The notes under the pieces: generated by a model
Told to the model about the DNA's origin: nothing
Seen by the model: only the letters and a program-made list of their open reading frames with translations
The model's database searches: none
In this document: one piece after another, positions 9,101-63,716 of the stretch
How the letters are laid out: each line of letters begins with the position of its first letter
How positions within the stretch are numbered: position 1 is the stretch's first letter
From: Protonemura montana
Taxonomy: Eukaryota; Arthropoda; Insecta; Plecoptera; Nemouridae
DNA: 64,000 bases
Assembly: GCA_947568835.1 (NCBI GenBank)
Contig: OX387602.1
Coordinates: 333,070-397,069 of the forward strand
Direction of reading: 5' to 3'
Translations under genes and position numbers: made by a program

Positions 9101-12100
9101 GCACCCAGCTTGCGTCACGACCACGTGGCCCGCTCTACTCCTGAGGGAACATGGGTCTACGATCTACTCCAGGTGCACGGCTGGTAGAAGACGCGACACA
9201 CTTCTTTTGCCAACTCGTGCTGGAGTTAATTACCATTATTTTCACGTGCAAAACCTTGGTAATTGGCAGCTAGTGGCTTATTAAACAACCACTGTGAGCT
9301 TTTTTGATTTTCAATTAGATACAGTTATTTTGTTTGAACGTTCCACTTTCTTGGCATTGGTTTTATTGCCTTGATTTGTCGATAAAAAACATTTCCTAGC
9401 GTGTCCCCTTCGGGCCGAGAGGCGGGCTCGCGGTGGAGGTACCGGGCCAGGACCTCCTACATAGACTGGTCAGGAGCCCGATGGGTCCTGGAATAGTAAC
9501 GAGTCCTGGTGATGTCCTGACACTGCAACCAGAAGTCCCGAGATACAATGAAATTGCGACGAAGATTCGTTACCTCTGGCAAACCGTTGCGAGCAGGCTG
9601 TGAAACAAGTGCGTGAGGCCGGACGACATTCTTGGCTGTGTTGCACGTATGTGTGTAATTGGTCATCTAGCGGGAAGCCAAGCGCTGGGCCGAGCCGAGC
9701 CGGGCCGAGCCGGGCCGGGCTGGGCCGGGCCGAGCCGGGCCGGGCCGATGATCACGATGGGGGCACAGAGCCTCGACTGGTCCGTCCAGATGAGAAGAAA
9801 TTAGCCTCAAAATGTGGTCGAGTCGGTCGGTCGGTCGGTCGGTCGGTCGGTCGGTCGGTCGGTCGGTCGGTCGGTCGGTCGGTCGATCGGTCGGTGTGCG
9901 GCATTTAATCGACTGTAATTGGTCCGAATTCGATGACGAAGCTACCTTGCGACCAAGATGGTGATGACCTGCAACACTCATTGAAAAATACATTTTCTAG
10001 CGCCTGAGTTTTTTTTTTTTTAATGAAAACTACGGTCCATTAACAAGTATTGCTTGAGGCAGGGCAATGTCATCTGTGTCGCGAGTCTGAAAAAGTTGTG
10101 ATCGACATACGTATACAGACATTATAACTGACAGGTGCAACAAAACATATGTTTACATATTATAATATTGTTAAATTATTATGCAGAACCGCATGAGGCG
10201 TTCGCTATACTAGCAGGATATCGCACTGTTTTGGTTTAATAATAGCAATTATTATAGAGGCATAAGTTATGCAATTATTAATTAATGTAATCAAATCAAA
10301 TCAAACGACTAAGAGTAATGAATTGGACTCCGTGACGAATGCAGTAGAAAGGGCAACAAACTACGGCCCTGAAAATGTGTTAAAGTGGTTTAATTTGCGG
10401 CCCGGTCCTCGAGGGGTTTGCACCGCGAAGGAATGTACATCACTTTTTCCTGGAGGCGTCGATGGCAGCAAACGACCGCCGAGACGAGTTAAAATCTCAG
10501 GGCGCGACGAAGAAGAAAAGGCCCTCAAATAGATGCAATTTTTTTAAATTTTTTATGAACAATATTTAAGTAGCGAGAAGTAGGTATGCTAGCTGCTTTC
10601 TGGATCCTAGAGATAAACAACCGTCGATACACCGGCCATTTTATTTGCGTTGCGTGCGGAAATGCGTTCATGTGTCACCTGTCTGCTTGCTCCTTTTGGT
10701 GCTTTCTTACGCAGCAAGAAATTGAAGCTAATTTGTAATAATCGCCAGACATAGGATGAAAGCAATTTATACGGAATTACATTTCTCCCAGATGTCTTTG
10801 CTCGATTATTTTGCGCCAGCATGAGATGATCGCAACACTGATACATAAAAGTTGCGCACGAGTGACATTGCCCCGTTTCAAATTAAACGACAATCATGTA
10901 TTAGGGTTTTTTTTTACCAACGCGATTTAAAATAAACCTGTTTTATTCACAAAAATCTAGTTTCGGAACTGGACTAGCCAAGTCGTGTATGCTAGCAGTG
11001 GTCCAAGCACTTGATATAGAAGTAGAGGACCATTACTCTGATCACTAAGCTGCAAAACTATAGCCTACTTCAGATGACCACTTCGTGTGGCGGTAGCGGC
11101 GGCGCAGAACAGTCATCCTTTCCAACAGTCAACAGAACTACAAGACCAGGGATAAATCACTCTGCAGCGATTTCAAGAAATGAAACGTCTAAATATCCAA
11201 CAAACTTGCTGATATCAATGTCGAATGAGAGGTCAAATGGAAAGAACATTTGGGAGACAGCATCGCTTTGCAATGTGCTTGTCCAGCGATACCTGAACAC
11301 GAGTTGGCTCGAGTCGCAAGAACCAATTGGTAGTAAATATGTCGCGCTGAGCGGAGATCGATTGACGAGTGGTGTCCTTTGCGCTGACGGCATCGCGGAT
11401 TGACCGAGTGACCCTGCTCAGCCCAGGCGGCGAGTGGTACCCGTTATACGAGGGTCAGCTGGAGGAGCGCTTATCCTCTTCATGGTCGTCGCCGTGATAC
11501 GTCCTCCTCTTAGTAGCACAATACCGTCAGCCTAGAGCATCATTTTCATTCATTCTTGTTGCCCATTCATTTACTAACATGTTTACAGATGTCTTGATGG
11601 AATCTCACAATCTGAACTTCATTTGTTACGTTCTAAACACTGCTGATCGGTATTTTGTTATTAAGAACACTAATAACCATTTAAAAATTGGTGCCCAATC
11701 GGGGACTCGAACCCCGATCTCCACCTGTCGCGGGTTTACCTCTAACCAATTGACCTAATTGGACATAGCCTTTTTGAGAGGATTTTAGTGCATTTGTTAA
11801 GAATGACGAATCGTCAAGGAGAAGAACCATGACGTTGAAAAAATACTCTGCCTATTGAAAGCGTTTACAATCCCGATTATATTCGTTGCTAAACAGTAAA
11901 ATAAATATGAAAATATCCAACGTTTTCACGGCGTTTGTCTGACTCTTCCCGATTTCTTTTATTCCAGCTGGCAGCGGAGGAGGTGGAAGTGGTAGAATCC
12001 GTCCCTGGCATCGTCCAAGGAATCGGACATGACCAACTGGACCTGGACCCGGCGCAGCACAGGGGCGACGACTTGGACCTGATCACATCGGATCAGCTGG

Positions 12101-14045
12101 CGCAGGAGTCGGGCGACCTGGATCCTTCGGGCGCGTCGCCCAAACACGGGTACGCGCCACCCCCGCAACTCCCGCCAAGGAACCACCACCCCGTGCGTGG
12201 AGTGCCACCCCACTCTCTCAGCAAGCCATTCGGCGGACCCCAGCATGGCAAGCAGCCCTCGTTCGATCACAACCAGAACCAGGTGTACAGCGGACCGCCG
12301 CCACCACCGCCGTCCTCTCCTAAAAAGGAGGCTATGGACAAGCTGTATAGCCCCGCCGGCGTCGGCGTTGGCGTCGGCGTCGGCGGAGACGCGTGGCCGG
12401 CGCCCATGCCGGACATGCCGAAGATAGTGTCGCTGGACGTCAAGTGCGAGAAGAACTCGATGAAGGTGTTCCTCGGCTTCGACAAGCCTTTCTACGGGAT
12501 CGTCTTCAGTAAGGGCCACTACAGTAACATCAACTGCGTGCATTTGCCAGCCGGGCTCGGCAGGACTTCGGCCACCTTCGACATCAGCATCCACGCGTGC
12601 GGCACGGCGGGAAACACCGAGAATGGACTCTACGGGTACGGCGCCGACTCCGGCTCGGGCACCTACTTCGAGAACATCATCGTAGTGCAGTATGACCCAC
12701 AGGTACGTTATGACGACATCGTCTCGAAGTGACGTGCACACCTGTTGCTTTTCTGGTGTTGATGATGCAACGGCTTCCAGTGCTAAGTCGGACGCCAAGA
12801 GACGTCATGTCTGCACGGTCGCAACCAGATGGCCGGTGTTTCCGATGCTTGTCTGGCTTCATTTCAAGGGACAAACGCTGAGCTGAATTACATTTCACTG
12901 TCAATCTCAGAGCGTGGTCGTTGATTCTCAAGTCGACAAAGTGTGGTTGTTGATCACACGGGGGTAGTCACGTGTGATGGCGCACCGAGTTGACCGTTGT
13001 GTGTTGCTGATTGCAGGTTCAGGAGGTCTGGGATCAGGCGCGCAAACTGCGCTGCACATGGCACGACCAGTACGAGAAGTCCGTCACCTTCCGACCCTTC
13101 CCCGTCGACATGCTCGACGTGGTCCGCGCAGACTTCGCCGGCGACAACGTCGGCTGCTGGATGCAGATCCAGGTCGGCAAGGGTCCGTGGGCTTCCGAAG
13201 TGTCTGGCCTCGTCAAGATCGGCCAGACCATGACCATGGTGCTCGCCATCAAAGACGACGACTCCAAATTCGACATGCTCGTGCGCAACTGCATGGCGCA
13301 CGACGGCAAGCGCGCGCCCATCCAGCTGGTTGACCAGACAGGCTGCGTGACGCGTCCCAAACTCATGTCGCGCTTCACGAAGATCAAGAACTTCGGCGCA
13401 AGCGCATCTGTTCTCTCATATGCACACTTCCAGGCCTTCAAGTTCCCTGACTCAATGGAGGTGCACTTCCAATGCACGATCCAGATCTGCCGCTACCAGT
13501 GCCCCGACCAGTGCTCGGACCAAACAGCACAGATCCACGGCGGCGGCGGACATCAGCTGCTGGAGGCGCATCACCCCGGCGCGGGCCCCGATGCCGGATA
13601 CGGCCCTCCGCCTCTTCCTCTGGAGGCCTACCTGCACGCCGGGTTGCCGCGAGACGAGCGACGCGCGCGGCGACAACGGCGAGACACCGGCGACCGTGAA
13701 GATGTCGGCGTCAACCGCGTGATCCGCGTCGTCTCGACCGGCGACCTCACGTTCTCCCTGGACGACAACGGCAACTCTTCGGCGCCCACCATGGTGTTCC
13801 CGGCGCGCGAGGAAGGCGGCAACGGACTTATCTGCATGACGACGCCCGGGTTTGCGGCGACTCTGATCGTGCTGCTAGGCATCCTCGTCACCTCGTGCCT
13901 CATGTCGGCGTTCCTGTGCGTGCGGCTGCGGCCGTTTGCCAAGAGCAGCAAGGCGTCGGGTCTGGCCGTCGGCGTCGTGACCGCCCCAGCTTACGCAGCG
14001 CACCCCGGAAAGAAGCAGCCCAGTAAGAGCTGCTTCTACTCGTAG
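6067..14045 (+). CDS. dyl: ZP-domain apical-matrix protein, dusky-like type (gene model, 3 exons)
   Basis: Joined coding exons 6067-6111, 11968-12702 and 13017-14045 give a 602-residue type I membrane protein; all junctions are phase 0 with GT-AG introns. Domains in order: signal peptide (about 1-17), acidic then proline-rich low-complexity region (18-160), ZP domain (about 168-426), basic furin-type site RRARRQRR (475-482), membrane segment (about 538-562), 40-residue tail. The ZP part contains VQEVWDQARKLRCTW and GCWMQIQVGKGPWAS, which I recognise from the arthropod dusky/miniature/dusky-like group; dusky-like is my best guess from memory, the group assignment is firmer. Drosophila members organise the apical extracellular matrix between epidermis and cuticle. 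The precursor is expected to be cut at the basic site and to polymerise outside the cell. A second ZP gene lies about 12 kb downstream on the other strand. Confidence 0.88.
7581..7936. repeat. Two identical GC-rich 16-mers 340 bp apart
   Basis: CGCGCAGGCGCGTGCA occurs exactly at 7581-7596 and again at 7921-7936, in intron 1. Its GCGCAGGCGC core resembles the binding site of the NRF-1/erect-wing family. The flanks share only a few bases, so this is not a simple duplication of a longer block. A regulatory role is inference only. Confidence 0.35.
8321..8365. repeat. 10-bp tandem repeat
   Basis: GGTTCAATTC is repeated three times in a row from 8331, with degenerate half units on both sides. It is a short intronic minisatellite with no sign of function. 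Confidence 0.8.
8707..8825. repeat. 30-bp GC-rich tandem repeat
   Basis: About four units of 30 bp built from GACGGC and GTCGAC steps. Because 30 is a multiple of three, one plus-strand frame reads as a repeating Gly-Asp peptide (GGVDDSDGDG), but there is no gene context and the stretch lies in the intron. The same GCGTCG/GACGGC hexamers recur elsewhere in the window. Confidence 0.8.
9676..9746. repeat. GGGCC/GAGCC low-complexity tract
   Basis: A run of GGGCC, GAGCC and CGGGC words with very high GC. It lies 75 bp before a GTCG tetranucleotide run and makes open frames on both strands that are not genes. Confidence 0.8.
9822..9895. repeat. (GTCG)n microsatellite
   Basis: About 18 copies of the tetranucleotide GTCG with one substitution (GATC instead of GGTC) near the right end. 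On the minus strand it reads as Pro-Thr-Asp-Arg repeats, a repeat artefact. Confidence 0.95.
11692..11764 (-). pseudogene. tRNA-like pseudogene or tRNA-derived SINE head
   Basis: On the minus strand this is exactly 73 nt with tRNA geometry. The 7-bp acceptor stem pairs completely (GTCCAAT with ATTGGGC, one G-T pair), the T arm is perfect (CGGGG/CCCCG around TTCGAGT), the B box GGTTCGAGTCC is exact, and the A-box region TAGGTCAATTGG has one mismatch to consensus. A T5 run follows within a few bases, as for a pol III terminator. However, the D stem and the anticodon stem each have two mismatches, and position 33 is G instead of U, so a working anticodon cannot be assigned. I call it a tRNA pseudogene or SINE head rather than a tRNA gene. 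It lies antisense in intron 1 of ZP gene 1. Confidence 0.65.
11968..12702 (+). CDS. dyl: ZP gene 1, coding exon 2 (proline-rich region and N-terminal ZP)
   Basis: The exon runs from acceptor TTCCAG|CTG to donor CACAG|GTACGT and encodes residues 16-260. First comes an acidic stretch (EEVEVVES), then a Pro/His-rich region with PPPPPP, then a glycine-valine run made by GTCGGC repeats (AGVGVGVGVGG, residues 145-155), then the start of the ZP domain. Cysteines typical of the ZP-N half are present (DVKCEK, INCVHL, HACGTAG). The sequence GTYFENIIVVQYDPQ closes the exon and continues directly into VQEVWDQ of exon 3. The long minus-strand open frame over this exon is a shadow. Confidence 0.92.
12703..13016 (+). 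other. ZP gene 1, intron 2 (314 bp)
   Basis: It begins GTACGT and ends GATTGCAG, phase 0, splitting ...QYDPQ from VQEVWDQ.... Reading through would meet a stop within ten codons, which supports splicing. No other feature was seen. Confidence 0.9.
13017..14045 (+). CDS. dyl: ZP gene 1, coding exon 3 (C-terminal ZP, furin site, TM, tail)
   Basis: The exon encodes residues 261-602 and ends in TAG. It carries the rest of the ZP domain, including the GCWMQIQVGKGPW block, KFDMLVRNCMAHDGKRAPI and the closing cysteine cluster CTIQICRYQCPDQC. A glycine/proline linker leads to the basic site RRARRQRR (475-482). After it come 55 residues with VIRVVSTGDLTFSL, a hydrophobic membrane segment (TLIVLLGILVTSCLMSAFL) and a short tail ending CFYS. 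Third codon positions are strongly G/C, unlike the flanks. Family members have the same order: ZP domain, convertase site, one membrane segment, short tail. Confidence 0.95.
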   Translation, partial: VQEVWDQARKLRCTWHDQYEKSVTFRPFPVDMLDVVRADFAGDNVGCWMQIQVGKGPWASEVSGLVKIGQTMTMVLAIKDDDSKFDMLVRNCMAHDGKRAPIQLVDQTGCVTRPKLMSRFTKIKNFGASASVLSYAHFQAFKFPDSMEVHFQCTIQICRYQCPDQCSDQTAQIHGGGGHQLLEAHHPGAGPDAGYGPPPLPLEAYLHAGLPRDERRARRQRRDTGDREDVGVNRVIRVVSTGDLTFSLDDNGNSSAPTMVFPAREEGGNGLICMTTPGFAATLIVLLGILVTSCLMSAFLCVRLRPFAKSSKASGLAVGVVTAPAYAAHPGKKQPSKSCFYS

Positions 14046-15578: not shown

Positions 15579-18500
15579 CAGGTCACTGCACGGTCCTATG
15601 ACTGGCTGGCAGGTCGCTGCACGGTCCTATGACTGGCTGGTAGGTCACTGCACGGTCCTATGACTGGCTGGTAGGTCGCTTCACGGTCCTATGACCAGCT
15701 GGTAGGTCGCTGCACGGTCCTATGACTGGCTGGTAGGTCACTGCACGGTCCTATGACCAGCTGGTAGGTCACTGCACGGTCCTATGACTGGCTGGTAGGT
15801 CACTGCACGGTCCTATGACCGGCTGGTAGGTCGCTGCACGGTCCTATGACTGGCTGGTAGGTCACTGCACGGTCCTATGACTGGCTGGTAGGTCGCTGCA
15901 CGGTCCTATGACTGGCTGGTAGGTCGCTGCACGGTCCTATGACTGGCTGGTAGGTCGCTGCACGGTCCTATGACTGGCTGGTAGGTCGCTGCACGGTCCT
16001 ATGACTGGCTGGTAGGTCGCTGCACGGTCCTATGACTGGCTGGTAGGTCACTGCACGGTCCTATGACTGGCTGGTAGGTCACTGCACGGTCCTATGACTG
16101 GCTGGTAGGTCACTGCACGGTCCTATGACCGGCTGGTAGGTCGCTGCACGGTCCTATGACCAGCTGGTAGGTCGCTGCACGGTCCTATGACTGGCTGGTA
16201 GGTCACTGCACGGTCCTATGCCCGGCTGGTAGGTCACTGCACGGTCCTATGCCTGGCTGGTAGGTCGCTGCACGGTCCTATGACTGGCTGGTAGGTCACT
16301 GCACGGTCCTATGACTGGCTGGTAGGTCACTGCACGGTCCTATGCCTGGCTGGTAGGTCGCTGCACGGTCCTATGACTGGCTGGTAGGTCACTGCACGGT
16401 CCTATGACAGGCTGGTAGGTCACTGCACGGTCCTATGCCCGGCTGGTAGGTCACTGCACGGTCCTATGACTGGCTGGTAGGTCACTGCACGGTCCTATGA
16501 CTGGCTGGTAGGTCACTGCACGGTCCTATGACCAGCTGGTAGGTCACTGCACGGTCCTATGACCGGCTGGTAGGTCACTGCACAGTCCTATGACTGGCTG
16601 GTAGGTCACTGCACGGTCCTATGACTGGCTGGTAGGTCGCTGCACGGTCCTATGACTGGCTGGTAGGTCACTGCACGGTCCTATGACTGGCTGGTAGGTC
16701 ACTGCACGGTCCTATGACTGGCTGGTAGGTCGCTGCACGGTCCTATGACTGGCTGGTAGGTCACTGCACGGTCCTATGACTGGCTGGTAGGTCGCTGCAC
16801 GGTCCTATGACTGGCTGGTAGGTCGCTGCACGGTCCTATGACTGGCTGGTAGGTCGCTGCACGGTCCTATGACTGGCTGGCAGGTCACTGCACGGTCCTA
16901 TGACTGGCTGGCAGGTCACTGCACGGTCCTATGACCAGCTGGTAGGTCACTGCACGGTCCTATGACCGGCTGGTAGGTCGCTGCACGGTCCTATGCCCGG
17001 CTGGTAGGTCACTGCACGGTCCTATGACCGGCTGGTAGGTCACTGCACGGTCCTATGCCCGGCTGGTAGGTCGCTGCACGGTCCTATGACTGGCTGGTAG
17101 GTCACTGCACGGTCCTATGACTGGCTGGTAGGTCACTGCACGGTCCTATGACTGGCTGGTAGGTCGCTGCACGGTCCTATGACTGGCTGGTAGGTCACTG
17201 CACGGTCCTATGACCGGCTGGTAGGTCGCTGCACGGTCCTATGACCGACTGGTAGGTCACTGCACGGTCCTATGACTGGCTGGTAGGTCACTGCACGGTC
17301 CTATGACCAGCTGGTAGGTCGCTGCACGGTCCTATGACTGGCTGGTAGGTCACTGCACGGTCCTATGACTGGCTGGTAGGTCACTGCACGGTCCTATGAC
17401 CAGCTGGTAGGTCACTGCACGGTCCTATGACTGGCTGGTAGGTCACTGCACGGTCCTATGACTGGCTGGTAGGTCGCTGCACGGTCCTATGCCCGGCTGG
17501 TAGGTCACTGCACGGTCCTATGACTGGCTAGTAGGTCGCTGCACGGTCCTATGACTGGCTGGTAGGTCACTGCACGGTCCTATGACTGGCTGGTAGGTCG
17601 CTGCACGGTCCTATGCCCGGCTGGTAGGTCACTGCACGGTCCTATGACCAGCTGGTAGGTCACTGCACGGTCCTATGCCCGGCTGGTAGGTCGCTGCACG
17701 GTCCTATGACTGGCTGGTAGGTCACTGCACGGTCCTATGCCCGGCTGGTAGGTCGCTGCACGGTCCTATGACTGGCTGGTAGGTCGCTGCACGGTCCTAT
17801 GACTGGCTGGTAGGTCACTGCACGGTCCTATGACCGGCTGGTAGGTCACTGCACGGTCCTATGACTGGCTGGCAGGTCACTGCACGGTCCTATGACCAGC
17901 TGGTAGGTCGCTGCACGGTCCTATGACCGGCTGGTAGGTCACTGCACGGTCCTATGACTGGCTGGTAGGTCACTGCACGGTCCTATGACTGGCTGGTAGG
18001 TCACTGCACGGTCCTATGACTGGCTGGTAGGTCGCTGCACGGTCCTATGACTGGCTGGCAGGTCACTGCACGGTCCTATGACCAGCTGGTAGGTCGCTGC
18101 ACGGTCCTATGACCGGCTGGTAGGTCACTGCACGGTCCTATGACTGGCTGGTAGGTCACTGCACGGTCCTATGACTGGCTGGTAGGTCACTGCACGGTCC
18201 TATGACTGGCTGGTAGGTCACTGCACGGTCCTATGCCCGGCTGGTAGGTCACTGCACGGTCCTATGACTGGCTGGTAGGTCACTGCACGGTCCTATGACT
18301 GGCTGGTAGGTCACTGCACGGTCCTATGACAGGCTGGTAGGTCGCTGCACGGTCCTATGCCCAGCTGGTAGGTCGCTGCACGGTCCTATGACTGGCTGGT
18401 AGGTCGCTGCACGGTCCTATAACCGGCTGGTAGGTCGCTGCACGGTCCTATGACTGGCTGGTAGGTCACTGCACGGTCCTATGACTGGCTGGTAGGTCGC

Positions 18501-18913
18501 TGCACGGTTCTATGACTGGCTGGTAGGTCGCTGCACGGTCCTATGACCGGCTGGTAGGTCGCTGCACAGTCCTATGACTGGCTGGTAGGTCACTGCACGG
18601 TCCTATGACTGGCTGGTAGGTCACTGAACGGTCCTATGACTGGCTGGTAGGTCGCTGCACGGTCCTATGACTGGCTGGTAGGTCGCTGCACGGTCCTATG
18701 ACAGGCTGGTAGGTCGCTGCACGGTCCTATGACAGGCTGGTAGGTCGCTGCACGGTCCTATGACTGGCTGGTAGGTCGCTGCACGGTCCTATGACTGGCT
18801 GGTAGGTCACTGCACGGTCCTATGACTGGCTGGTAGGTCGCTGCACGGTCCTATGACTGGCTGGTAGGTCGCTGCACGGTCCTATGACAGGCTGGTAGGT
18901 CGCTGCACGGTCC
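15579..18913. repeat. 31-bp minisatellite, 107 units plus a partial unit
   Basis: The unit is AGGTCACTGCACGGTCCTAT followed by GACTGGCTGGT (phase arbitrary). The first unit starts at 15579 and the partial last one at 18896; the 3,317 bp between are exactly 107 x 31, so no net insertion or deletion has built up. Variation is confined to a few sites: TCACTG/TCGCTG, and the core after CCTATG, which reads ACTGG, ACCAG, ACCGG, CCCGG, ACAGG or CCTGG. Groups of units are copied as blocks, for example a six-unit (186-bp) repeat starting near 17872 and again near 18058. There is no coding potential. The array lies between the convergent ZP genes. Confidence 0.97.
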
Positions 18914-19259: not shown

Positions 19260-19622
19260 CGGCCTTCTCATAAAATCAAAGAGAGACCACAGACTGCAAT
19301 CATGTCAAATGACACTCTCTCGGACTCTCAGCACGGATTTGCAAGAAAAGATTGACTACCTTCGATCTCTTCTTTGACCGCTAATGTGACTTTTTCTATG
19401 ACCTCAGCAAGGCATTTGTCATCCTACCCAACAAACTATTTAAACGGCATTCGTGGAGCGCACATAACCCAATTAAATATTTTCTTACTTCGCGATTCTA
19501 AATTGTGGAAATGAATCTTCGGAGACATTCAATGCAAGTCCCACTCACTCTGAGCTCCTCCCAATACCCAAAAGTAATTAATTTCTTTCTATTCAACATC
19601 TTCCAACATCCCTTAATGAATA
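19260..19622 (+). pseudogene. Non-LTR retrotransposon reverse-transcriptase relic, left part
   Basis: Three plus-strand blocks read like a decayed LINE reverse transcriptase of the Jockey/CR1 type: LSDSQHGFARKD followed by a stop (from 19317), DFFYDLSKAFVI continuing LPNKLFKR (19388-19501, matching the usual DLSKAFD motif with its D lost), and FFLFNIFQHPL (from 19583, like the usual LLFNIF block). They lie in the correct order but in different frames, with stops and deletions. The relic is interrupted at 19622 by the pogo-like element and appears to resume at 23056. It is dead. Confidence 0.65.
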
Positions 19623-19648
19623 GGGGAGACTGGGGCTAGTTGATACAG
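19621..19648 (+). repeat. Left terminal inverted repeat of the pogo-like element
   Basis: It starts with the TA target site and GGGGAGACTGGGGCTAGTTG, matching the reverse complement of 23030-23057 with one mismatch in 28 positions. Beyond it, CAGTACCTAGTTAATAG looks like a second, decayed copy of the 16-bp unit that makes up the array at the other end. Confidence 0.85.
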
Positions 19649-19778
19649 TACCTAGTTAATAGGGGAAAAACAAAAATGAGCTGATTATAAATAATGTTTA
19701 ATAAATAATGCATACGAGGTTTTATTTTTTAAGTGAAATATTATATTTACTGAATCAACATTCAACTGTATTAATCGC

Positions 19779-19988
19779 TTACATGCAATCTACACAAATA
19801 TATTCTGGTGTGAATACAATACACTTCACATGCGCCCAAGTCGAACACTGAATGCACTGAATCCTGTCTAGTTCAGCGGGGCCTGATTTGGAGAAGAGTT
19901 GAGAACAGACAAAACAAACGCAGTCTTCGTCGGCCTCCTCCGGAGGACAGTTCTTGTTGACGTTCGTTGGCGCTTTTCGCTTCTTATC
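19779..19988 (-). pseudogene. Transposase C-terminal fragment with PHD-type zinc finger
   Basis: Read on the minus strand this is a 69-codon open stretch ending in TAA, with an in-frame TGA just upstream and no start codon, so it is a fragment or a terminal exon. It opens with the basic DKKRK and an acidic EEADED stretch. The ligands fit the C4HC3 PHD pattern: CFVC, then CIQC, STWAH, VKC, then CVDC; all eight are kept. Such fingers are found at the end of pogo-like transposases and in some other TE proteins. It lies just inside the left inverted repeat, as expected for the end of a transposase gene read from the right. No upstream transposase was recognised. Confidence 0.65.
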
Positions 19989-20178
19989 TCATATTATGTC
20001 AATATATCAATCTTCCTCCTATAAATTCGCATTTTAATACCTGGAAAATCTAAAGGAAACAATCATATTATATTTTGTACAAACGGAATATGAAACCCAA
20101 AAAATAAATCCAGCGTAAAATAGAAAAGGTAGTGTCCCATAATCTCACATCATGTCCAGACCCACACAAGAAATGAAC

Positions 20179-20197
20179 AGTAACAACTAGCCCCAGT
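20179..20197. repeat. Isolated internal copy of the element end motif
   Basis: AGTAACAACTAGCCCCAGT matches the junction between the array and the right end of the element (TAACAACTAGCCCCAGT before CTCCCC), yet it lies 320 bp left of the array. It could be an older right end or a seed from which the array was copied. Confidence 0.6.
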
Positions 20198-20520
20198 AGC
20201 ACTTTAATTACATTAGTGCTATTATTTCACGACCTATTTGAATATCAGCCCGGAAATAACTATTAGCATTACGAGAAAATGTGGGGCTAACAGGTAACAC
20301 AACTCATTTGGGGATTGCATTAAAATAAAACAGCTGGGAAGGAAAAAAGAAAAAAAATATATCTAACCTCGTGGTGTACAAATCGTTTTATCTCCAATTA
20401 TTTCCGTACTTCGGCGCTTCGGACTTGTTCTGAAGTTTCAGACTGACGAGCGACCAAATAGCAAGCTCTGATATTAATGACACCGCGATATTTCAAATCC
20501 CCTATTTTTAAAGTCGGTTG

Positions 20521-23048
20521 TAACAACTTGCCCCTGTAACAACTTGCCCCTGTAACAACTAGCCCCTGTAACAACTAGCCCCTGTAACAACTTGCCCCTG
20601 TAACAACTAGCCCCTGTAACAACTAGCCCCTGTAACAACTTGCCCCTGTAACAACTTGCCCCTGTAACAACTAGCCCCTGTAACAACTTGCCCCTGTAAC
20701 AACTAGCCCCTGTAACAACTAGCCCCTGTAACAACTAGCCCCTGTAACAACTAGCCCCTGTAACAACTAGCCCCTGTAACAACTAGCCCCTGTAACAACT
20801 AGCCCCTGTAACAACTTGCCCCTGTAACAACTTGCCCCTGTAACAACTAGCCCCTGTAACAACTAGCCCCTGTAACAACTAGCCCCTGTAACAACTTGCC
20901 CCTGTAACAACTTGCCCCTGTAACAACTTGCCCCTGTAACAACTAGCCCCTGTAACAACTAGCCCCTGTAGCAACTAGCCCCTGTAACAACTTGCCCCTG
21001 TAACAACTAGCCCCTGTAACAACTTGCCCATGTAACAACTTGCCCCTGTAACAACTTGCCCCTGTAACAACTAGCCCCTGTATCAACTAGCCCCTGTAAC
21101 AACTTGCCCCTGTAACAACTAGCCCCTGTAACAACTTGCCCATGTAACAACTTGCCCCTGTAACAACTAGCCCCTGTAACAACAAGCCCCTGTAACAACT
21201 TGCCCCTGTAACAACTAGCCCCTGTAACAACTAGCCCCTGTAACAACTAGCCCCTGTAACAACTAGCCCCTGTAACAACTAGCCCCTGTAGCAACTAGCC
21301 CCTGTAACAACTTGCCCCTGTAACAACTAGCCCCTGTAACAACTTGCCCATGTAACAACTAGCCCCTGTAACAACTTGCCCCTGTAACAACTAGCCCCTG
21401 TATCAACTAGCCCCTGTAACAACTTGCCCCTGTAACAACTAGCCCCTGTAACAACTTGCCCCTGTAACAACTAGCCCCTGTAACAACTTGCCCCTGTAAC
21501 AACTTGCCCCTGTAACAACTAGCCCCTGTAACAACTAGCCCCTGTAACAACTAGCCCCTGTAACAACGTGCCCCTGTAACAACTAGCCCCTGTAACAACT
21601 AGCCCCTGTAACAACTAGCCCCTGTAACAACTTGCCCCTGTAACAACTAGCCCCTGTAACAACTTGCCCCTGTAACAACTTGCCCCTGTAACAACTAGCC
21701 CCTGTAACAACTAGCCCCTGTAACAACTAGCCCCTGTAACAACGTGCCCCTGTAACAACTAGCCCCTGTAACAACTTGCCCCTGTAACAACTAGCCCCTG
21801 TAACAACTAGCCCCTGTAACAACTTGCCCCTGTAACAACTAGCCCCTGTAACAACTAGCCCCTGTAACAACTAGCCCCTGTAACAACAAGCCCCTGTAAC
21901 AACTTGCCCCTGTAACAACTAGCCCCTGTAACAACTAGCCCCTGTAACAACTTGCCCCTGTAACAACTAGCCCCTGTAACAACTAGCCCCTGTAACAACT
22001 AGCCCCTGTAACAACTAGCCCCTGTAACAACTAGCCCCTGTAACAACTAGCCCCTGTAACAACTTGCCCCTGTAACAACTAGCCCCTGTAACAACTAGCC
22101 CCTGTAACAACTAGCCCCTGTAACAACTAGCCCCTGTAACAACTAGCCCCTGTAACAACTAGCCCCTGTAACAACTAGCCCCTGTAACAACTTGCCCCTG
22201 TAACAACTTGCCCATGTAACAACTAGCCCCTGTAACAACTAGCCCCTGTAACAACTAGCCCCTGTAACAACTAGCCCCTGTAACAACTTGCCCCAGTAAC
22301 AACTAGCCCCTGTAACAACTAGCCCCTGTAACAACTAGCCCCTGTAACAACTAGCCCCTGTAACAACTAGCCCCTGTAACAACTAGCCCCTGTAACAACT
22401 AGCCCCTGTAACAACTTGCCCCTGTAACAACTTGCCCCTGTAACAACTAGCCCCTGTAACAACTTGCCCCTGTAACAACTAGCCCCTGTAACAACTAGCC
22501 CCTGTAACAACTTGCCCCTGTAACAACTAGCCCCTGTAACAACTTGCCCCTGTAACAACTAGCCCCTGTAACAACTAGCCCCTGTAACAACTAGCCCCTG
22601 TAACAACTAGCCCCTGTAACAACTAGCCCCTGTAACAACTTGCCCCTGTAACAACTTGCCCCTGTAACAACTAGCCCCTGTAACAACTAGCCCCTGTAAC
22701 AACTTGCCCCTGTAACAACTTGCCCCTGTAACAACTTGCCCATGTAACAACTTGCCCCTGTAACAACTTGCCCCTGTAACAACTTGCCCCTGTAACAACT
22801 AGCCCCTGTAACAACTTGCCCCTGTAACAACTTGCCCCTGTAACAACTAGCCCCTGTAACAACTAGCCCCTGTAACAACTTGCCCCTGTAACAACTTGCC
22901 CCTGTAACAACTAGCCACTGTAACAACTAGCCCCTGTAACAACTTGCCCCTGTAACAAATAGCCCCTGTAACAACTAGCCCCTGTAACAACTAGCCCCTG
23001 TAACAACTTGCCCCTGTAACAACTAGCCCCTGTAACAACTAGCCCCAG
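20521..23048. repeat. 16-bp satellite array, 158 units, inside the pogo-like element
   Basis: The unit is TAACAACTAGCCCCTG. The first unit starts at 20521 and the last at 23033, exactly 157 x 16 bp apart, so the register is unbroken. The main variation is a two-state switch, AACTAG versus AACTTG; rare variants are AACGTG, AACAAG, CATG for CCTG, GCAACT and TATCAACT. A 320-bp (20-unit) block was duplicated: GCAACT at 20971 recurs at 21291 and TATCAACT at 21081 recurs at 21401. The last unit merges into the element's terminal inverted repeat, so the unit is a copy of the element's own end. Minus-strand open frames here are artefacts. Confidence 0.97.
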
Positions 23049-23057
23049 TCTCCCCTA
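23030..23057 (-). repeat. Right terminal inverted repeat of the pogo-like element
   Basis: CAACTAGCCCCAGTCTCCCC followed by TA is the reverse complement of the left end. It overlaps the last 16-bp unit of the array. The final TA is the duplicated target site. Confidence 0.85.
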
Positions 23058-26605: not shown

Positions 26606-28278
26606 CTGCGAAGGGGTGGGCGTTAGGCAAGTGAAGTAGATCGCTACTCAAGGGGGTGGCAAGAGCGAGTGGTGGTGCCTGATATTGTCTAGCGTTTAGT
26701 AAGCCGACACTTAAGGGTGCCTGATAAATAATTCGACAAGTTAATGAATCAAGAATTCAAAGACATAAGTCTTCATATCTTGGTACCTGATAGGGTCGAG
26801 ACAGAGTGTCTCTGTCCTCGTGGTCGTTATGCGAGATGGGCGAGTGCTGCTGTTGCTTCTGCTGCTGCGCGTGCGCCGGCTTCCTGGCCGACGTGCCCAT
26901 GCCGACACCGAGACCGACGCCGACGGGGAACTCGGCGTCGTCGTCGCTATCCTGGATGAGCTCGTCATAGATCAACAGGTCATCGTCGTCGGCGCCGGCG
27001 CCGGCCTGGGAGTGTGTACGCAGAGGCGGGTCTGCTAGCGGCCGGGGCTCTGACGGCTGATCCTGGCGCTCCAGGGGGCCGAAGTGTCCGGCGGGCAGCG
27101 GCACGTGGCCATTGTTGTGCGGCGGCTCTGCCTGGCAGTGGTCCAGACAGCCGTGGCGGCAGATCTCCACCTTGCACTTGATGTGCACGCTCAGTGCGTC
27201 GGGGAACTTGAACGCGTGGAAGAACGCGTACGTGATGACGGATGCACGCTCGTCCGTGGCGCGCGCCTTCAGGAAGCGGCTGATCATCTTCGGACGCAGC
27301 ACGCAGCCCTGCTCGTCTGACAGTTGGATGACGTGGCCGCCGCCGTCGGACGCCGCGCACGACTTGACGCGCATGTCGAACTCGCCTGAAACACGACGCA
27401 GCACAATGTCAGCCATGGGCATGTCGGTCTGTCGACCTGAGTCGGGCTATTGATCGCTGATATGACTGGATGGTACCGATGCAATGGGTAGGTCATTCAT
27501 TCGTGACAAATGAAAAGGTATATGAAGCAAACCAGAAACATTATATTAATATGGGCATCAAAGGAGAAATACGAATTCAAGCGTTTAATTGATTAAAATT
27601 TCGACTGAATGAAGGTTGTTGGCGTCGGAGGTTTACTTCGGAAGTCGTTGATGGCGACGACCAGCGTGAGCGTCGACCCAAGCGGCACGATTCCGCTGAC
27701 TGGAGGCGCCCAGGGACCCTTCCCGTGCTGGATCTCCATCCAGCAGTCCACGTTGTCCCCTGGAAATCATGAGAGGCGTCAGCGCAATGCTTAGCAAAGA
27801 CTCAAGACAAGGACTCTAAGTTTTCTTGCACGACTCGTGACCCACCTCGGAAGTCCAACTGGATGACGTCGAGGTCAGCGATCACCATCGGGGGTTTGGA
27901 CGCCGTCTTCTCGTAGTCGTTGAACCACTCGCAGCGCAGTCTCTTGGCCTCATCCCAAACCTCGAGCAGATCTTTGTCGTATTGCACGACGACCGTGTTC
28001 TCGTAGAACTGGCCGTGGAGGTCGGGCTTGGTGCCGCAACGCGCGTACGCAATGCGGAACGAGAAGAACGTCTTTCCGGTCGACGGTGGCACGTAGACGC
28101 ATCGAGGGTCGGCGTACTGCCCCTTGGACGAGACGATACCCTCGAAGGGGTGTGAGAACGAGAGGTGCACGTCCATGTGATCTTTGCCGCACATCACTTC
28201 TAGCGACTGGATGGCCGGCATGCCGTCGGGCCGTTCCAGCGGCCAGATGTCACCGCTCGCTGCCAGTGAACTGCACAC
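26021..28278 (-). CDS. Second ZP-domain apical-matrix protein (gene model, 4 exons seen, 5' incomplete)
   Basis: Exons in transcript order are 28278-27846, 27759-27637, 27385-26787 and 26605-26021, with intron phases 1, 1 and 0. They encode at least 579 residues. Domains: short leader, ZP domain (about 22-270 of the visible part), acidic and glutamine-rich linker, five-arginine convertase site, membrane segment, tail. The ZP sequence (VWDEAKRLRCEWFNDYEKT, DNVDCWMEIQHGKGPWAPP, EFDMRVKSCAASDG) is clearly related to, but distinct from, gene 1, and belongs to the same broad group of cuticular ZP proteins; I cannot give the exact orthologue. No start codon or signal peptide is in the visible exons: the first seen exon begins in phase 0 with VCSSLAASGD after an acceptor, so at least one 5' exon is missing. 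The gene is convergent with gene 1. Confidence 0.88.
26606..26786 (-). other. ZP gene 2, intron 3 (181 bp)
   Basis: Donor TATCAG|GTACCA and acceptor CTTCGCAG, phase 0. Reading on from the donor gives a stop after some ten codons. Confidence 0.8.
26787..27385 (-). CDS. ZP gene 2, exon with C-terminal half of ZP and acidic linker
   Basis: It begins GCGAGTTC after acceptor GTTTCAG and finishes the split serine codon (AGC). It encodes EFDMRVKSCAASDGGGHVIQ, then the HAFKFPDALSVHIKC block and the cysteine-rich end of the ZP domain (CKVEICRHGCLDHC). After that comes a low-complexity linker with DDDD, DSDDD, a GVGLGVGMG run and QQQ repeats. It ends SRPYQ before donor GTACCA. Most linker residues come from GTCGTC/GGCGTC-type repeats like those seen in non-coding parts of the window. 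Confidence 0.9.
27637..27759 (-). CDS. ZP gene 2, 123-bp internal ZP exon
   Basis: The exon completes the glycine codon of DFRG and reads DNVDCWMEIQHGKGPWAPPV, then SGIVPLGSTLTLVVAINDFR. It was found by matching gene 1 (GDNVGCWMQIQVGKGPWASE). The acceptor is ATTTCCAG|GGG and the donor CGAA|GTAAAC. Both phases (1 and 1) fit the neighbouring exons without any change, which makes the small exon secure. Confidence 0.92.
27846..28278 (-). CDS. ZP gene 2, exon with N-terminal half of ZP (first seen exon)
   Basis: Acceptor TTCCCAG|GTG; donor CCGAG|GTGGGT, phase 1. It encodes VCSSLAASGDIWPLERPDG and then the ZP-N half with SLEVMCGKDHMDV, PRCVYVPPSTGKTFFSFRI, YARCGTKPD and ENTVVVQYDKDLLEVWDEAK. In gene 1 the exon that follows the signal-peptide exon also starts in phase 0 with an LAA tripeptide close by, so this exon is probably the second coding exon and the signal peptide is upstream (higher coordinates). 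Confidence 0.92.
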
Positions 28279-46100: not shown

Positions 46101-47320
46101 CAGGTTTCAAGTGGTCGATTTAAAGAATGCGTCGTATCATTGCTATCAGGTACACCTTTTCATTTATTGTGTGGTCTCACCAGTCTGTTAGACAGCGTCC
46201 TCGAATCCTAGCAGCGTTTGGCGGGATCTTTAGCGATGAGCGCCGGATATCGGTTCGCTTTGCTGGTAGTTTGTTTGTTCATGACCTCGCATTCGCTTCT
46301 GCTGCTGCTTCTGCTGTTGCTGCGTCGGCACGGTACTCCTTTACTGGCGTGGACAGCTTTTTGTGGCGTTTGACTCATTTCAGAGAATTGTTGCGTGGAA
46401 AAGTAAGGTCCAGCCAGCGAGGCTCGAGACGAGCAAGGTTCGCACCACGCGAAACACAAGCTCGTGATGGCAAGTGTGTTAAGACTTCAGACAGATATCG
46501 ATGAGTCTATGCGCCTAGGAGTCCAGCAATAGACAGATACCAGATGGCGATTGTATAAATTCGTAAGCTTGGTCGAATAAAGCACAGGTCAAGGTATCGG
46601 TTGGAAGAAAAAATGTGTCCAGAAATTAAATAAAGATTTTTTTCTAGAAATTTGGCTGCATGGAAACATGACAGTCAAAATATGAATTCGAAACTACGAT
46701 GATTCAGCCAGATATCGGAAGCGGCATTGTCAAAGGAAAGGTCAGTTTCGAGGAGTGCAGCGAATTTGCACCATTGCCCATTTAGCAGCGAAGAAAGAAC
46801 GCGCCTGGGAAACCGGAAGAGAGTCGTCCTGACGTGGTGATAACTAAAAGAATAATTCCCTCGGTTATACGCATCGCCATTCGTCGCGGCTAATCGGCCC
46901 ATCTTCTACGGACACTTACTGACAACGATTACCTACGAATGGAGTTTGTCGGCTGAACAGCCGAGTTTGTAGACCGCGCGGAGTTTGCTGCGTTATACCA
47001 ACGTCTTGCGTCTGTCTGACTGGCCGTCTTCAATATAGGTATCTCTCTATTCAACGATGACTAATCCGTTTAAATCGATCTAATTGTGGAATCGATCCTC
47101 GGACCGTGACCCGACCGTGACGTGTCGCGTCGCGTCGGAACGCGCGAGCGACCATCGCTCGCGGTATCGAACAACGTGAGTGGATGTCAAATCAACAGCA
47201 GAAGCCTGAAATTGCGATTCACAAGCTTTTTCGGTCGCGAACAAATACCGTGAAAATAGAGTGATGACAGGGAAACAATCCGGTGTTTTATTCCAGCACA
47301 ATGCCGCACCTACGTCCAGC
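43188..47320. other. Region without recognised genes
   Basis: No exon or RNA gene recognised. It contains an (ATACA)n microsatellite at 44969-44998 and a CTG/CTT-rich stretch near 46297-46325. Open frames are under 130 codons and show no motifs. Confidence 0.55.
44969..44998. repeat. (AATAC)n microsatellite
   Basis: About six units of ATACA/AATAC with one AATAA variant. Confidence 0.9.
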
Positions 47321-47752
47321 GGATCCTGGGTGGGGGGTCGGATCCTGGGTGGGGGGTCGGATCCTGGGTGGGGGGGTCGGATCCTGGGTGGGGGGGTCGG
47401 ATCCTGGGTGGGGGGTCGGATCCTGGGTGGGGGGGTCGGATCCTGGGTGGGGGGTCGGATCCTGGGTGGGGGGGTCGGATCCTGGGTGGGGGGTCGGATC
47501 CTGGGTGGGGGGTCGGATCCTGGGTGGGGGGGTCGGATCCTGGGTGGGGGGGTCGGATCCTGGGTGGGGGGTCGGATCCTGGGTGGGGGGTCGGATCCTG
47601 GGTGGGGGGGTCGGATCCTGGGTGGGGGGGTCGGATCCTGGGTGGGGGGGTCGGATCCTGGGTGGGGGGGGGTCGGATCCTGGGTGGGGGGTCGGATCCT
47701 GGGTGGGGGGTCGGATCCTGGGCGGGGGGTCGGATCCTGGGTGGGAAGGTCG
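47321..47752. repeat. G-rich minisatellite, 22 units of 19-22 bp
   Basis: Each unit is GGATCCTGGGTGG followed by a G run of varying length and then GTC. Length variation lies in the G run, unlike the fixed-length arrays elsewhere in the window. Every unit has a run of at least six G plus a GGG, so the plus strand is rich in potential quadruplexes. Open frames of 140-180 codons occur on both strands; they are repeat artefacts. Confidence 0.97.
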
Positions 47753-48561
47753 GTGTCTGGACATGGCTGGATTTGATGCTGGAAGACGACTGAAGAACAT
47801 GCTGGTTCTGGCTGGTGTCTGACGTACGCGCATTATATGTTAGACTTATAATACTTCATTTAAGACATCAACTGACTTGTCTTCATTATGGTGATCATTA
47901 TCATACGTAATCATCTTCATCATCATCATTTCCCGCGCTAAGCTAATATTACATTCCATTCTTTATAATAAAGCACTTAAAATCCTTCATTAGGCCATCC
48001 AATGGGACTCATTTTCGCTTTACCTTTGATTGCATTTGCACCCTCTGTGCGTGCATCACCCCTTCTGACCACAAGACAAATACCGCCGCTGCCTCACGAA
48101 GGCAGCCTCGTCTTGGAATGTAGATAGTGCGTGTTGTGCGTGCATCGCGTAGAGTTTGTCCGTTCCGAGAAGCTCATCCCTTGGCTCGGTGTCCTTCAGT
48201 AAGTCGGCCTATCCCTGTGATGGCAAATCAATGATCGTATGACGGATTTCCTCGAAGTAGGACCGATCATCTTCTTTCAGATTGTCGCGGATTGATCTGT
48301 AGATTCAGACACGTGTTTCTTTGGTCGTGTTTGGGACATTCATGAAACCTGAGATTCTAATATTCAATTGAAAACGTTCCTGATATTTCGATATTTTAAA
48401 AGCAAAACATTTATCAGCCACAACTGGACCCAAAACAATGCTTCTTCTGTCTGACAGAGGTTTTGTTTTATCGAGCGGTCAGTTTCTTGCACTGTGTGGG
48501 TCGCTTAGCAACGAACTCTGCTCGCACTCTGATTGAGTGATCTGGTTTCCAGGTTCCAACT

Positions 48562-53708: not shown

Positions 53709-56660
53709 CTTGCTGTGATATATTTATCACTGTTGAATTCCCTACTCGGTGCCTCCCACGTCTACTTGCAAATTAGCATTATTAATAACACACATATTTC
53801 ATACATGAAATCGTTCTCCCGGTGAGCTATCGCCAATACACGTGGCAGTGTGTAGTATTTCCGAGTCTCACCTGTTTTGACCGAGCTTAAGTGTCGGTGT
53901 AATCCAAGCATTATTTCCGCATTTCGAGGCCCGCGTTCGGAGAAAGATTGGGTCGCTGTTCAATGCGTGTGCGTGCATCGTGCGTTGAGGCTCAACTCGT
54001 TCAGCGGTCAAGTTAGACCAGCCTGTTACAGCTTGCGAATGTCGCAAGTAAATGGGACAGGACTGCTCAAACCTCTGAAGAAGTAACTAGTATATGTTGC
54101 GAAACGTCGGGAAATTTAGTAGCCCTTTACTTAGCATTCAAAACCCAGTTGAAATAGTTTTTGTTAAATGGGAAATATTTGCGCATTACTTTATCTGGAC
54201 TGGCGCACACGTAAAACTTGGAAAATAATTTTCTGTTCATTCAACGTAAAGTAATGACCTTAGAGCTTCTATATGATTGAGCGATTTCTGTTCTTATTGA
54301 ATTAATTAACTTATTACTGCAAGCACAATGATTATACTTAAACAACTGTTATAAATACCGACGTAGGTAATTATCCGACCATTAAAATGTTATGCTTGCA
54401 GACGAAGAGAAGGCCTACTTTAAACTGAATGTCAAACAGCACCAGATGTAGGTACAATGTTAGGTAACTGGCTGACTTGGCCGCACACCATGGTTCTGGT
54501 CACTTGAAGTTAATTAGTTAAATAATTATCACAGTAAAGCACGCTCTCATTGCTCCGCATTTATCGTGATCAAAGATCTCCGGCTAGCGCGATATTGACT
54601 TGGTAGAAGGCTTTGCCCAGACGCTCTGCCATTGCCAATACGAGGACGCAGGAATCCCATGGATCAGGTGCCAGCCAGGACACGACGGCGACAGGAGAGC
54701 CGCGTGCAGTGGCAAGTCTGGTGGTTAAATTTGGCAAGCTCACTCACACACGCACGCAAATTATCTAGGTCGTTCACTGGGTAACGGAGAAAAATCGACT
54801 TTTTTTGATCTCGAGTTACCGTTAGATCATTTGAAAAAGAAAAGGCTCCCATGGTAATCAAAAAGACAATAGTCGAAGCAGTAAGTCGTGATTTCCAAAA
54901 ATGTATTGCTGATATTCAGTAGCGAAATATGTGTGCTTTAGATTGGAGGTTACGCATGGCCGCGGTGCCGTCACTGAGTTGGCTTCCTGGGACCAGCGGG
55001 TTAATGCAGACTTAGGACCTCCTTGGCGCCGTTTCGTCCGACTCGTTCAGGGATGGCGAGGGTGTATCGGTGGGCTGACATTGGGCTCTGTCGCTGGCCA
55101 CGATGGATTTATTTTTTGGGCAGTTTCTCGATCGCGCGCGCTTTGATTCAAAGTATAAATCCACATTTAATTAAATGAGTCATTCAATGAGTATACCTGT
55201 CAAATGACTCGGTAGTCGCAAGTTTCTCGAGCGAGCTTTTGACAGTTATTTAAAACCAGGCGGCGCGGGAATTAATTAAAACACGTGCCACCAAGTGCAG
55301 TAAATTATCAACTGTCCGACGCGAGGATTTATTTTCCAGGAGGCGGGGATCTAGTTTACTAATAACCAACGCGCGCAATATCAATTGCACCGACCAATTA
55401 GTCGGTGCACGGGGCGCGTACGGTGGTGGCGCCGGGTTCGCGGCCAGGCCCCCGACCGCCACCCCAAAACAGGTTCGCTCGCGGACAAGAAAATCCGGAT
55501 TTCGGAGTCATATCATCGTTTTGCGCCGGTTCGGCGTCATATTTGGAAGTACACATTACGTGATTACGATGCAGCAAACGACGCTAACAAGTAATTGGAT
55601 TTGTGTAACGAGCTGCGCGCGTGCGCGACCAGCCCGCGAGCGGCGTCCTTTGACACGCCGTGCGTTCCCATCGGGGTCAACCAGATGTGACACAAGAGAT
55701 CGATCTTGACGGCGGTGGTTCGCGCGGCAAGGTCAATGTCAACGCGCTCTGGGAGGCCCGGAAGCCTGGATTCATCAGACTTACCTCAAACACGTAACGT
55801 TCAATAGCAGAAGGTAATTGATGTGCACTGCAGTCGATGGCACATGGCGAGAGAAGGCGGAAGCTGCGATAGCGCCAGATGTGCTACGAGTCCACGACGT
55901 CGATCTTGCTAGGTTATGTTGGCGGACAATCGCCAGGGTGTTTCCACATAACGGAATGGAGCACTCTGTCACGTCACTCGAAGCGAGTGCACACGGTCAG
56001 TAGGCCCTCCGCAAGTCACCCTGCGCAGCCAGTGCCATCGTTGACATTTGCTCATTCACGTTCGCGTCCAGGGTCTTTGGCCCTCTGGTTGGATGTTGCC
56101 TGGTCGCGACCGCCTCCTGCCTACAACACTACACGAACTAGGATATGCTAATTTCCGACCTCTTGGCGCGAGTCGGCCCCAAGGAAAAGTGGTCGGCGTA
56201 TTTACGCTCGCGCTAGCCTTGACCGATGTCCGCGGCTGACCACTCGTTGATGACGTGTGGTATGTGAGTTGACGACGACAAACGTGTGTCTGTCTGATGT
56301 CGGCACTCTCGAGGAGTCACTAGAACCGGCCGAGCACTCGGAGCACGCGAAGAACTGTGTTCGAGGTTCAAGACCGAAAGGCGATTGCTCTTGATTCTCG
56401 TCCGGACTCGCACATGCACTTGCTGGAGCTGAACGATCACCGAGCTGGCTTCGGCGGTGCCGCGGTTGTGAAGCCGACTTGTAAAGTAACCAAGAAAGCA
56501 GAGCTCGGCGGCCACGGCTGTTTCTCCTCCCGGCTGGCAGGTGGATTCGACAAGAAGACGCGAGGCGCGGCGTGGCGAGGTGAGGCGGCTAGCAAGTGGA
56601 GGAGAAGAAGCTAGCGGGGCTGGGGCTGGGGCTGGCAGACAGCACAGGGCAACGACATCG

Positions 56661-62333: not shown

Positions 62334-63716
62334 GAGACCTGCTTCGACATGACAGGCGGGACAAGCTCTTGCCACACCTGAATATGTGGCCGCAGATATG
62401 TGAAATTATATAATGTTTCATGTGTCATGTGTCATGTGTCAATGTGTAATGATATGTTTCTGTGCTGATCCAATTGGCTGACATTTGCTTTATTCTTCAA
62501 AATAGCCAGAGTATGTTTTATTTTCTTTATCTGTTTGTAATTCACAAACTCTAGGCGAAAAAAAATAAAAGGAAATCTAAGCTCCAGTTATCTACGATCT
62601 ACCAGAGCAGGTATCCCTCGAGGAATGGATGCCGCGTTCTAATTAAACCCAACCCGAAGAAAAGGTACCATGGCCAATAAGTGCACCCTAATCTCACGTT
62701 CAGCTATTCAAGGGAAACGATCCGCCCTTAAAGCGTGATGGAGAAAGAACGCGAGTAAGGAATTAAGTCCTGCGTAGCTCTCAACCTGTTTCTTGTTCTA
62801 GCAATCAAGTTGGAGTACGTTGTTTTCGTTGATTTGAAACAATTGTAAAATGTCGTTGCAATTTACCACCGAATATACTGTTGCTTTTTCTGTGCTTGCG
62901 TGACAAACATTTTTTCACTGGAAAATAAATGAGAACTTGTTTGTTTTATAATGGGAATGTCCGAATGTGTATTTTGTGCGGCAGTCCATGACCACGTTGA
63001 TATATTTGTTGAGTCCACAGGAACGCGAATGCGTGGCGAAGCCGCGGTCTCGGCAAGAACATTGCCGCCGATCGGGCGGCTTTCAAGAGAATCGTTACAA
63101 TTTCCGGTCTTCGGATTCGTATCTTGCTAATGGAACGAGCTTGGTAATGGAAACAGCGTCGGTGTTTTTTGCTCCCGAGTTGCCTGACGATCGGAAGTGG
63201 TGTAGAAAATATGCCAACTTATCGACGGGATTTGAATTGGGTGCGTATCTCAGTGTTGGGACTCCTCAAGAAGCCTCAACACATGCCACTTACCAGTGCA
63301 CATACCTCTGCAAGAATTTTCAAACGTCGTATCTAACGTGACCTCTATAATATTGTACAAGGAATTCGGAAAGCACCAAAAAAAGCGCACCCTAGACTAG
63401 CCTAATTCCTCCTACAGGCACTGAACCGTAGATGGTATCATTTTGTGAAAGGCCTCTAATGACGTGTTATTGTCTTATTATCGTCCAAGATTTTTCTAGA
63501 CACCATTTGCCTTCTAATGAGTGAATTCTGATCTGCCCTGTAATCTTCCGATGGGTCTATGTCAGAGGCAAGAACCGATGCAGTCGAAGCATATGAAACG
63601 TACCGTAACATGATTATTAACATAATCATTCATTAATTACCAACCATTTCTAATTGAGTTTTTTGAAGTTTATGACAAGATTACTATCTGATTACCATCC
63701 TAGATAGATAAACCAA
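62334..63716. other. Region without recognised genes
   Basis: A short TGTCATG microsatellite lies at 62418-62446. A 124-codon open frame at 62967-63341 has no recognisable motif. Nothing else seen. Confidence 0.5.

Follow-up and report, generated by a model that had tools for sequence, protein, structure and literature searches.

A 16-bp satellite very probably grown in place at the end of a TA-flanked inverted-repeat element in Protonemura montana

Introduction

The beginnings of satellite DNA are usually inferred from end products. A stretch of 64,000 nucleotides of the Protonemura montana genome (GenBank assembly GCA_947568835.1, contig OX387602.1; C1:333070-397069 in the contig numbering used here), referred to below as the window, contains a long array of a 16-bp unit that stops exactly at one end of an inverted-repeat element, which raises the question of whether the satellite arose from the element, was the source of the element's ends, or came to lie beside it. 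The initial annotation of the window proposed that a terminal motif of a transposon had expanded into a satellite. This proposal is considered here against the 258-Mb assembly of 34 contigs, beginning with the window copy and continuing through the element family, its target site, and the range of array sizes and structures found in the genome.

The Window Array and Its Host Element

The array parses into 158 units without any change of length: 91 are TAACAACTAGCCCCTG, 50 are TAACAACTTGCCCCTG, and 17 are of other types. TRF run on the window reports the array at 20519-23046, with a period of 16, 158.0 copies, and a score of 4538. The last unit, TAACAACTAGCCCCAG, runs directly into TCTCCCC followed by TA, overlapping the right terminal repeat; its inverted partner, GGGGAGACTGGGGCTAGTTG, begins at 19623. 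The annotated features are given in Table 1, and they bear out two statements of the initial annotation, that the unit is the inner part of the terminal inverted repeat and that the last of 158 units leads straight into the element end. Within the window, the 13-mer AACAACTAGCCCC has 93 occurrences on the + strand and 0 on the - strand; 92 of the 93 are in the array and the single one outside it sits within the same element. Because of these strand and position counts, the match between array and element is not a matter of chance.

The window element extends over 3,433 bp (19623-23055), begins with GGGGAGACTGGGG, and finishes with CCCCAGTCTCCCC, with TA beyond either end. The ORF list of the window gives no ORF of 120 aa or more within it, and the element is a non-autonomous inverted-repeat element flanked by TA. 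At its left end about 219 bp are gone between the inverted-repeat unit and the inner unit, and about 198 bp are gone between the left-repeat unit and the inner unit of its sister copy, L019. The supposed decayed unit at the left end, TACCTAGTTAATAGGGG, is ordinary element body that is present in most other copies, and this part of the initial annotation falls away.

The window holds three other long minisatellites, one of 31 bp x 107.5 (15580-18913), which stops about 700 bp before the left end of the element, one of 29 bp x 149.2 (57991-62339), and one of 19 bp x 22.1 (47320-47753). Gene pieces with a ZP/cuticlin domain flank the element at 11935-14045 (+) and 26757-28278 (-). A search of the window with Rfam gave 0 matches at gathering score.

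Table 1. Positions of the features discussed in the text; plain positions are those of the window, and positions with a contig prefix are those of the assembly.
Feature	Position	Strand	Remarks
Left TA target-site duplication	19621..19622	.	TA followed by GGGGAGACTGGGG
Left terminal inverted repeat	19623..19642	+	Deletion-fused to inner left unit in window copy
Non-coding element body	19643..20520	+	91-95% identity with other copies
Internal unit core AACAACTAGCCCC, single copy	20182..20194	+	From 13-mer count and unit-site layout
16-bp satellite, 158 units	20521..23048	+	Occupies position where most copies hold two units
Right terminal inverted repeat	23036..23055	-	Inner part is the last unit
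Right TA target-site duplication	23056..23057	.	
R2 copy	54096..54169	-	Empty site for element family just past its low-coordinate edge
Large 16-bp arrays with body and terminal repeat	Window; C2:27.84M; C4:215-226k; C4:1.66M; C15:788k; C13:4.18M		
Large 16-bp arrays with terminal repeat only	C4:978-1009k; C4:24.95M; C14:426-450k		About 31 kb; 55 units; about 24 kb, decayed end
Large 16-bp array with body only	C15:12.45M		
Further 21-bp arrays	C13:16545-16549k; C14:2334.6-2335.9k		

The Element Family and Its Target Site

A search of the genome with the element body gives at least 41 match rows at 91-100% identity, the window itself included, and the end motif, when up to 2 mismatches are allowed, has 168 occurrences in comparison with 4 of a reversed control. 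Terminal inverted repeats, GGGGAGACTGGGGC...GCCCCAGTCTCCCC with at most 2 mismatches, are present at both ends in 36 of 43 loci examined. The family is MITE-like: it has terminal inverted repeats, a TA duplication, and many dispersed copies without a transposase gene. A typical copy (L021) measures 1,158 bp from TA to TA and has seven unit-like sites. The left inverted repeat contains one of them; the others are an inverted unit at 192, direct units at 210 and 231 (21 bp apart), a single internal unit at 780, and a right-end pair at 1119 and 1135, spaced 16 bp, the outer unit of which belongs to the right inverted repeat. The internal unit is not better conserved than other positions of the body (mean divergence 0.047 vs 0.034), so conservation gives no sign of function for the unit, which the initial annotation had tentatively taken for a transposase binding site. 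One locus, at C4:2306-2318k (L088, L087), looks like a copy of the element interrupted by more than 11 kb; the ends of the interruption, which are the two parts of it that were read, are inverted repeats of each other, and it is probably another transposon nested in the element.

TA stands on both sides in 32 of the 36 two-ended copies; the left duplication is TA in 32, CA in 2, CG in 1, and TG in 1, and the right duplication is TA in all 36. One copy, L026 (C4:1658-1662k), carries 147 units and is inserted within another repeat, here named R2, such that filled and empty sites can be compared. The filled site reads CGTAACATG-TA-[3,475 bp]-TA-CTAGTTACTTC; two empty R2 copies read CGTAACATA-TA-CTAGTTACTTC and CGCAACATA-TA-CTAGTTACTTC (written whole, CGCAACATATACTAGTTACTTC and CGTAACATATACTAGTTACTTC), and a third empty copy has CATGTACTAG, the same as in L026. 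The R2 copy at 54096 in the window is one of the two empty sites that define the duplication. Comparison of the filled and empty R2 sites therefore identifies the duplication as TA and the 147-unit array as part of the insertion. Three array loci share one insertion point in R2, in both orientations (L026:322-402, L058:3107-3183, and L004:1426-1502), possibly an insertion hot spot.

On the TA duplication alone, the family would fit Tc1/mariner. ISL2EU (PHIS) elements are described as having an AT duplication within A-AT-T and PIF/Harbinger elements a 3-bp TWA duplication (PMC4482050). The family does not match ISL2EU in its TA duplication or in the base outside it, since 85 of 121 distinct flanks have C as the next base in the outward direction; nor does it match PIF/Harbinger, as the empty-site comparison gives a 2-bp TA instead of a 3-bp TWA. 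PF13358 has 0 matches in the genome, and none of the 45 genome matches to PF03184 is within about 30 kb of an end among the ends listed (compared by eye). Inspection by eye of about 3.5 kb inward from L090 and L096, two of 15 end loci and without the typical interior, revealed no transposase-like frame.

Unit Counts at Right Ends

The right end of each copy can be located by the junction between body and first unit. A pattern for this junction, allowing up to 3 mismatches, matches the genome at 76 places, with 3 for the control; these junctions, together with L054 and L057, body copies in which the junction is absent, make up the 78 loci inspected. One unit is present at 12 of the 76 junctions, two units at 55, three to six units at 0, and seven or more at 9, the nine expanded ends having 7, 7, 10, 13, 43, 147, 158, 181, and about 640 units as assembled. 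Counting the units in other copies, a check proposed in the initial annotation, thus usually returns two. The 76 junctions are not all independent, as L034/L035 and L125/L126 share flanks and are probably duplications. The empty class of three to six units fits growth in steps of several units, in what is a small sample.

The exceptions at the terminal bases are L141 (one unit) and L039 (two units), which are without them, and L132 (two units), which has a one-base gap there; at L124 (10 units) 8 terminal bases were read, of which 2 differ. For the largest array, at C4:215k, 54 units were read in a run and the array closes in the terminal repeat at C4:225638; the figure of about 640 units assumes continuity, with units read or matched at several points between.

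Large Arrays and Arrays at the Left End

At least 12 loci have 16-bp arrays of 13 units or more; for the large blocks, the stated lengths assume continuity between sampled points. Body and terminal repeat flank the array at six of the 12 listed large-array loci (Table 1); at one of these, C13:4.18M, the right-hand body is reduced to about 100 bp. The array that has kept only the body (C15:12.45M) apparently joins it at the single internal unit, as judged by eye. At the edges of the two remaining listed arrays, C14:2379-2388k and C14:2439-2450k, body and terminal repeat are both missing. A 91-bp satellite stands on one side of each and a 12-bp satellite on the other, and the two loci appear to be a single duplication. 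Arrays free of element ends, the search for which the initial annotation had recommended and whose wide occurrence it took to count against its reading, are thus found at these two of the 12 listed loci, and in part at the one where the body stands without a terminal repeat.

Other satellites are neighbors of the 16-bp arrays. We take a 91-92-bp satellite with GGTATTGGATGGGTGAC to resemble a 5S rRNA-derived repeat; it abuts two 16-bp arrays and is within about 1 kb of two more (window 63711-63994; L064:174-1594; L109:1-860; L004:132-675; L106:1-434). A 12-bp satellite, TCCTGCCCCATG, adjoins four C14 arrays (L066:335-2901; L108:98-2500; L107:814-1388; L143:2691-3401).

The left pair of units is spaced 21 bp, and 21-bp arrays are found at three or more loci. 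In L044 (C15) an array of about 7 kb lies inside the left inverted repeat, with the left terminal repeat beyond it at C15:797166-797190; the right end of L044 has 43 units of 16 bp, so this one copy has arrays at both ends. The expansion at one end only that was described in the initial annotation is therefore a property of the window copy and not of the family. The 21-bp array on C14 is joined to about seven 16-bp units in inverted orientation and to a terminal repeat that has decayed, and the body is gone. At L068:704-1066 (C13) a 72-bp segment, left terminal repeat plus flank, is present in five tandem copies, growth there including host flank; a 17-bp satellite, ACAACTGTTGTTCCAGT (L144:1-1104), directly adjoins the C13 21-bp array. 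The left-end arrays, the C13 and C14 composites, and the deletions in the window copy and L019 look like exchanges between copies of the unit. At each end the array period equals the spacing of the seed pair, 16 bp on the right and 21 bp on the left, a rule that can be tested elsewhere.

Origin and Growth of the Arrays

The array in the window is, with high probability, a satellite that arose by in-place amplification of a pair of units within a single copy of a non-autonomous inverted-repeat element that inserts at TA. The satellite is assigned to the element's end because 67 of 76 right ends have one or two units, the 147-unit array at L026 lies inside the TA duplication, and the array-bearing copies are not one clade, and the central proposal of the initial annotation, a satellite derived from the terminal motif of an element, is upheld on these grounds. 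The starting state would be the usual right end, where two 16-bp units stand head to tail and the outer unit forms the inner portion of the terminal inverted repeat. The pair would then be amplified in situ, several units per step, by replication slippage or out-of-register recombination, with new units accumulating beyond the body and inward of the final bases of the element; the left pair, with its 21-bp spacing, would expand likewise to 21-bp arrays in a few copies. Later deletions and exchanges between units would strip the body or the ends, leaving free satellite blocks. The process would be slippage or unequal exchange, with several separate starts and with growth following insertion.

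The composition of the arrays bears on how they grew. Their two main unit types, TAG and TTG, also make up the usual right-end pair; across 16 array stretches TAG accounts for 49-77% and TTG for 23-51% of the two-type units. Divergence of units from their own type is 0.7-1.7% per base in the five array copies with bodies, vs 2.5-6.6% for the end branches of the bodies, and reaches up to 2.4% per base in body-less arrays; the low unit divergence fits growth after insertion, or homogenization. Rare unit types of the window array recur 20 units apart (29/49, 32/52, and 36/56) and 11 apart (66/77), a pattern suggestive of block duplication. The lag scores of entire arrays are weak, with a best z of 2.1 for the window and 3.3 for L026.

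A different history would have a single founder expansion, after which daughters transposed with the array and changed its length, some going back to two units. An array-bearing copy could in principle move, since the TA-bounded 3,475-bp insertion at L026 holds the whole array, and the same two main unit types are present in all large arrays. The tree of element bodies speaks against such a founder: built from 41 bodies and 856 columns, it includes five array copies (the 13-unit copy L002 and the copies with 7 and 10 units are not in it), and a single clade of the five is rejected (p-AU 0.00078). The sister of the window copy is L019, which has two units (support 100/99). The five array copies need five changes on the tree, no fewer than with shuffled labels (mean 4.9), strongly supported branches alone forcing only two changes in an analysis whose bootstrap had not settled. 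The 10-unit array of L124 contains no TAG unit, and divergence is lower in the array units than in the bodies beside them, both of which also argue against a founder. When the order of units was compared between arrays, 3 of 120 pairs beat all 40 resamples, one of them being L006/L063, which overlap in the genome; this test is powerless for common descent because distinct stretches of one array likewise show no excess. Array expansions probably started several times, a reading that draws mainly on the tree, and gene conversion between copies could have spread arrays; a single founder is unlikely. Still less likely is that the satellite came first, the element ends having formed from or captured a piece of an older 16-bp satellite. 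No body is present in the two blocks of greatest length (about 24 and 31 kb) and two other blocks are without any element end, as such an origin would allow, yet the two body-less blocks still end in a terminal repeat, decayed in the one of about 24 kb. Both inverted repeats contain the unit, which is found again within the element in either orientation, and this layout, together with the right-end counts, leads to rejection of a satellite-first origin. Genome assemblies are prone to errors where a short period is repeated many times; an assembly artifact is nevertheless hardly credible for 12 or more array loci that differ in unit make-up and, at 10 of them, join body or end exactly.

Growth could also have been driven by a transposase, cutting at an end and gap repair from the sister copy lengthening the pair as a by-product of attempted transposition. 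Growth does adjoin the terminal cut sites at both ends, and the absence of copies with three to six units is what large steps would give; the searches described above found no partner transposase for the family, however, and slippage requires no cutting, leaving this a doubtful, minority explanation for the growth as a whole. We favor slippage or unequal exchange acting on the tandem pair already present, with transposase cutting and gap repair possibly contributing. If growth from pre-existing pairs is taken as general, the family would be a portable satellite seed that carries pre-installed pairs, from which arrays of fixed period grow independently by multi-unit jumps and later lose the element ends; we lean slightly toward this broader reading. 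Were it true, the likeness of distant satellites would reflect repeated births from one template and not the spread of a finished satellite.

Comparison with Known Systems

Helitrons are not known to have inverted repeats or TA duplications. The central repeats of Helitrons and Helentrons resemble the Protonemura arrays in being short internal arrays and in including arrays that adjoin element sequence at just one of their sides (PMC12628747). Satellites derived from transposon inverted repeats or from MITEs are already known, and the published accounts offer several points of comparison. In miDNA4 of Xenopus tropicalis (Scalvenzi and Pollet; PMC12628747, PMC9659126), a MITE monomer likewise ranges from one copy to an array and becomes a free satellite once the element ends are lost; in these accounts, however, the monomer lies within the MITE and was captured by it, whereas the Protonemura unit is part of the inverted repeat itself. 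The Xmix MITE and the Xstir repeats of Xenopus (Hikosaka and Kawahara; PMC12628747, PMC9659126) similarly combine a MITE, a tandem array, and composites; the source of Xstir is given as an inverted repeat in a table of PMC9659126 and as internal MITE sequence in PMC12628747. The proposed origin, as summarized there, is a stem-loop between two neighboring elements, whereas in Protonemura single copies with one pair appear to expand.

The closest case found, compared here by description and not by sequence, is Tetris with its TIR-220 repeats in Drosophila virilis, a non-autonomous element whose inverted repeats contain tandem units that gave rise to satellite-like arrays; added binding sites are proposed by its authors as the start (PMC4079207). 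As described there, the tandem units inside the terminal inverted repeats share a stretch with the flanking terminal domain, copy number changes within the element, and longer satellite-like arrays occur, many in contigs without other element sequence, all of which is like the family described here. Tetris has units of about 220 bp, arrays of at most 66 copies, duplications of 8-10 bp, and three structurally complete copies, whereas the Protonemura family has 16- and 21-bp units, a TA duplication, anchored arrays of 7 to about 640 units, and a separate period for each end. What the Protonemura genome adds to these systems is an anchored size series, an unexpanded majority, evidence from empty sites, origins that were probably repeated, and two seeds that differ in period. 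Stages of 1, 2, 7, 10, 13, 43, 147, 158, 181, and about 640 units are anchored at the same element position in one genome and, with the empty sites and an unexpanded sister copy, allow measurement of how large the steps of satellite birth are, when they occur, and how repeatable they are.
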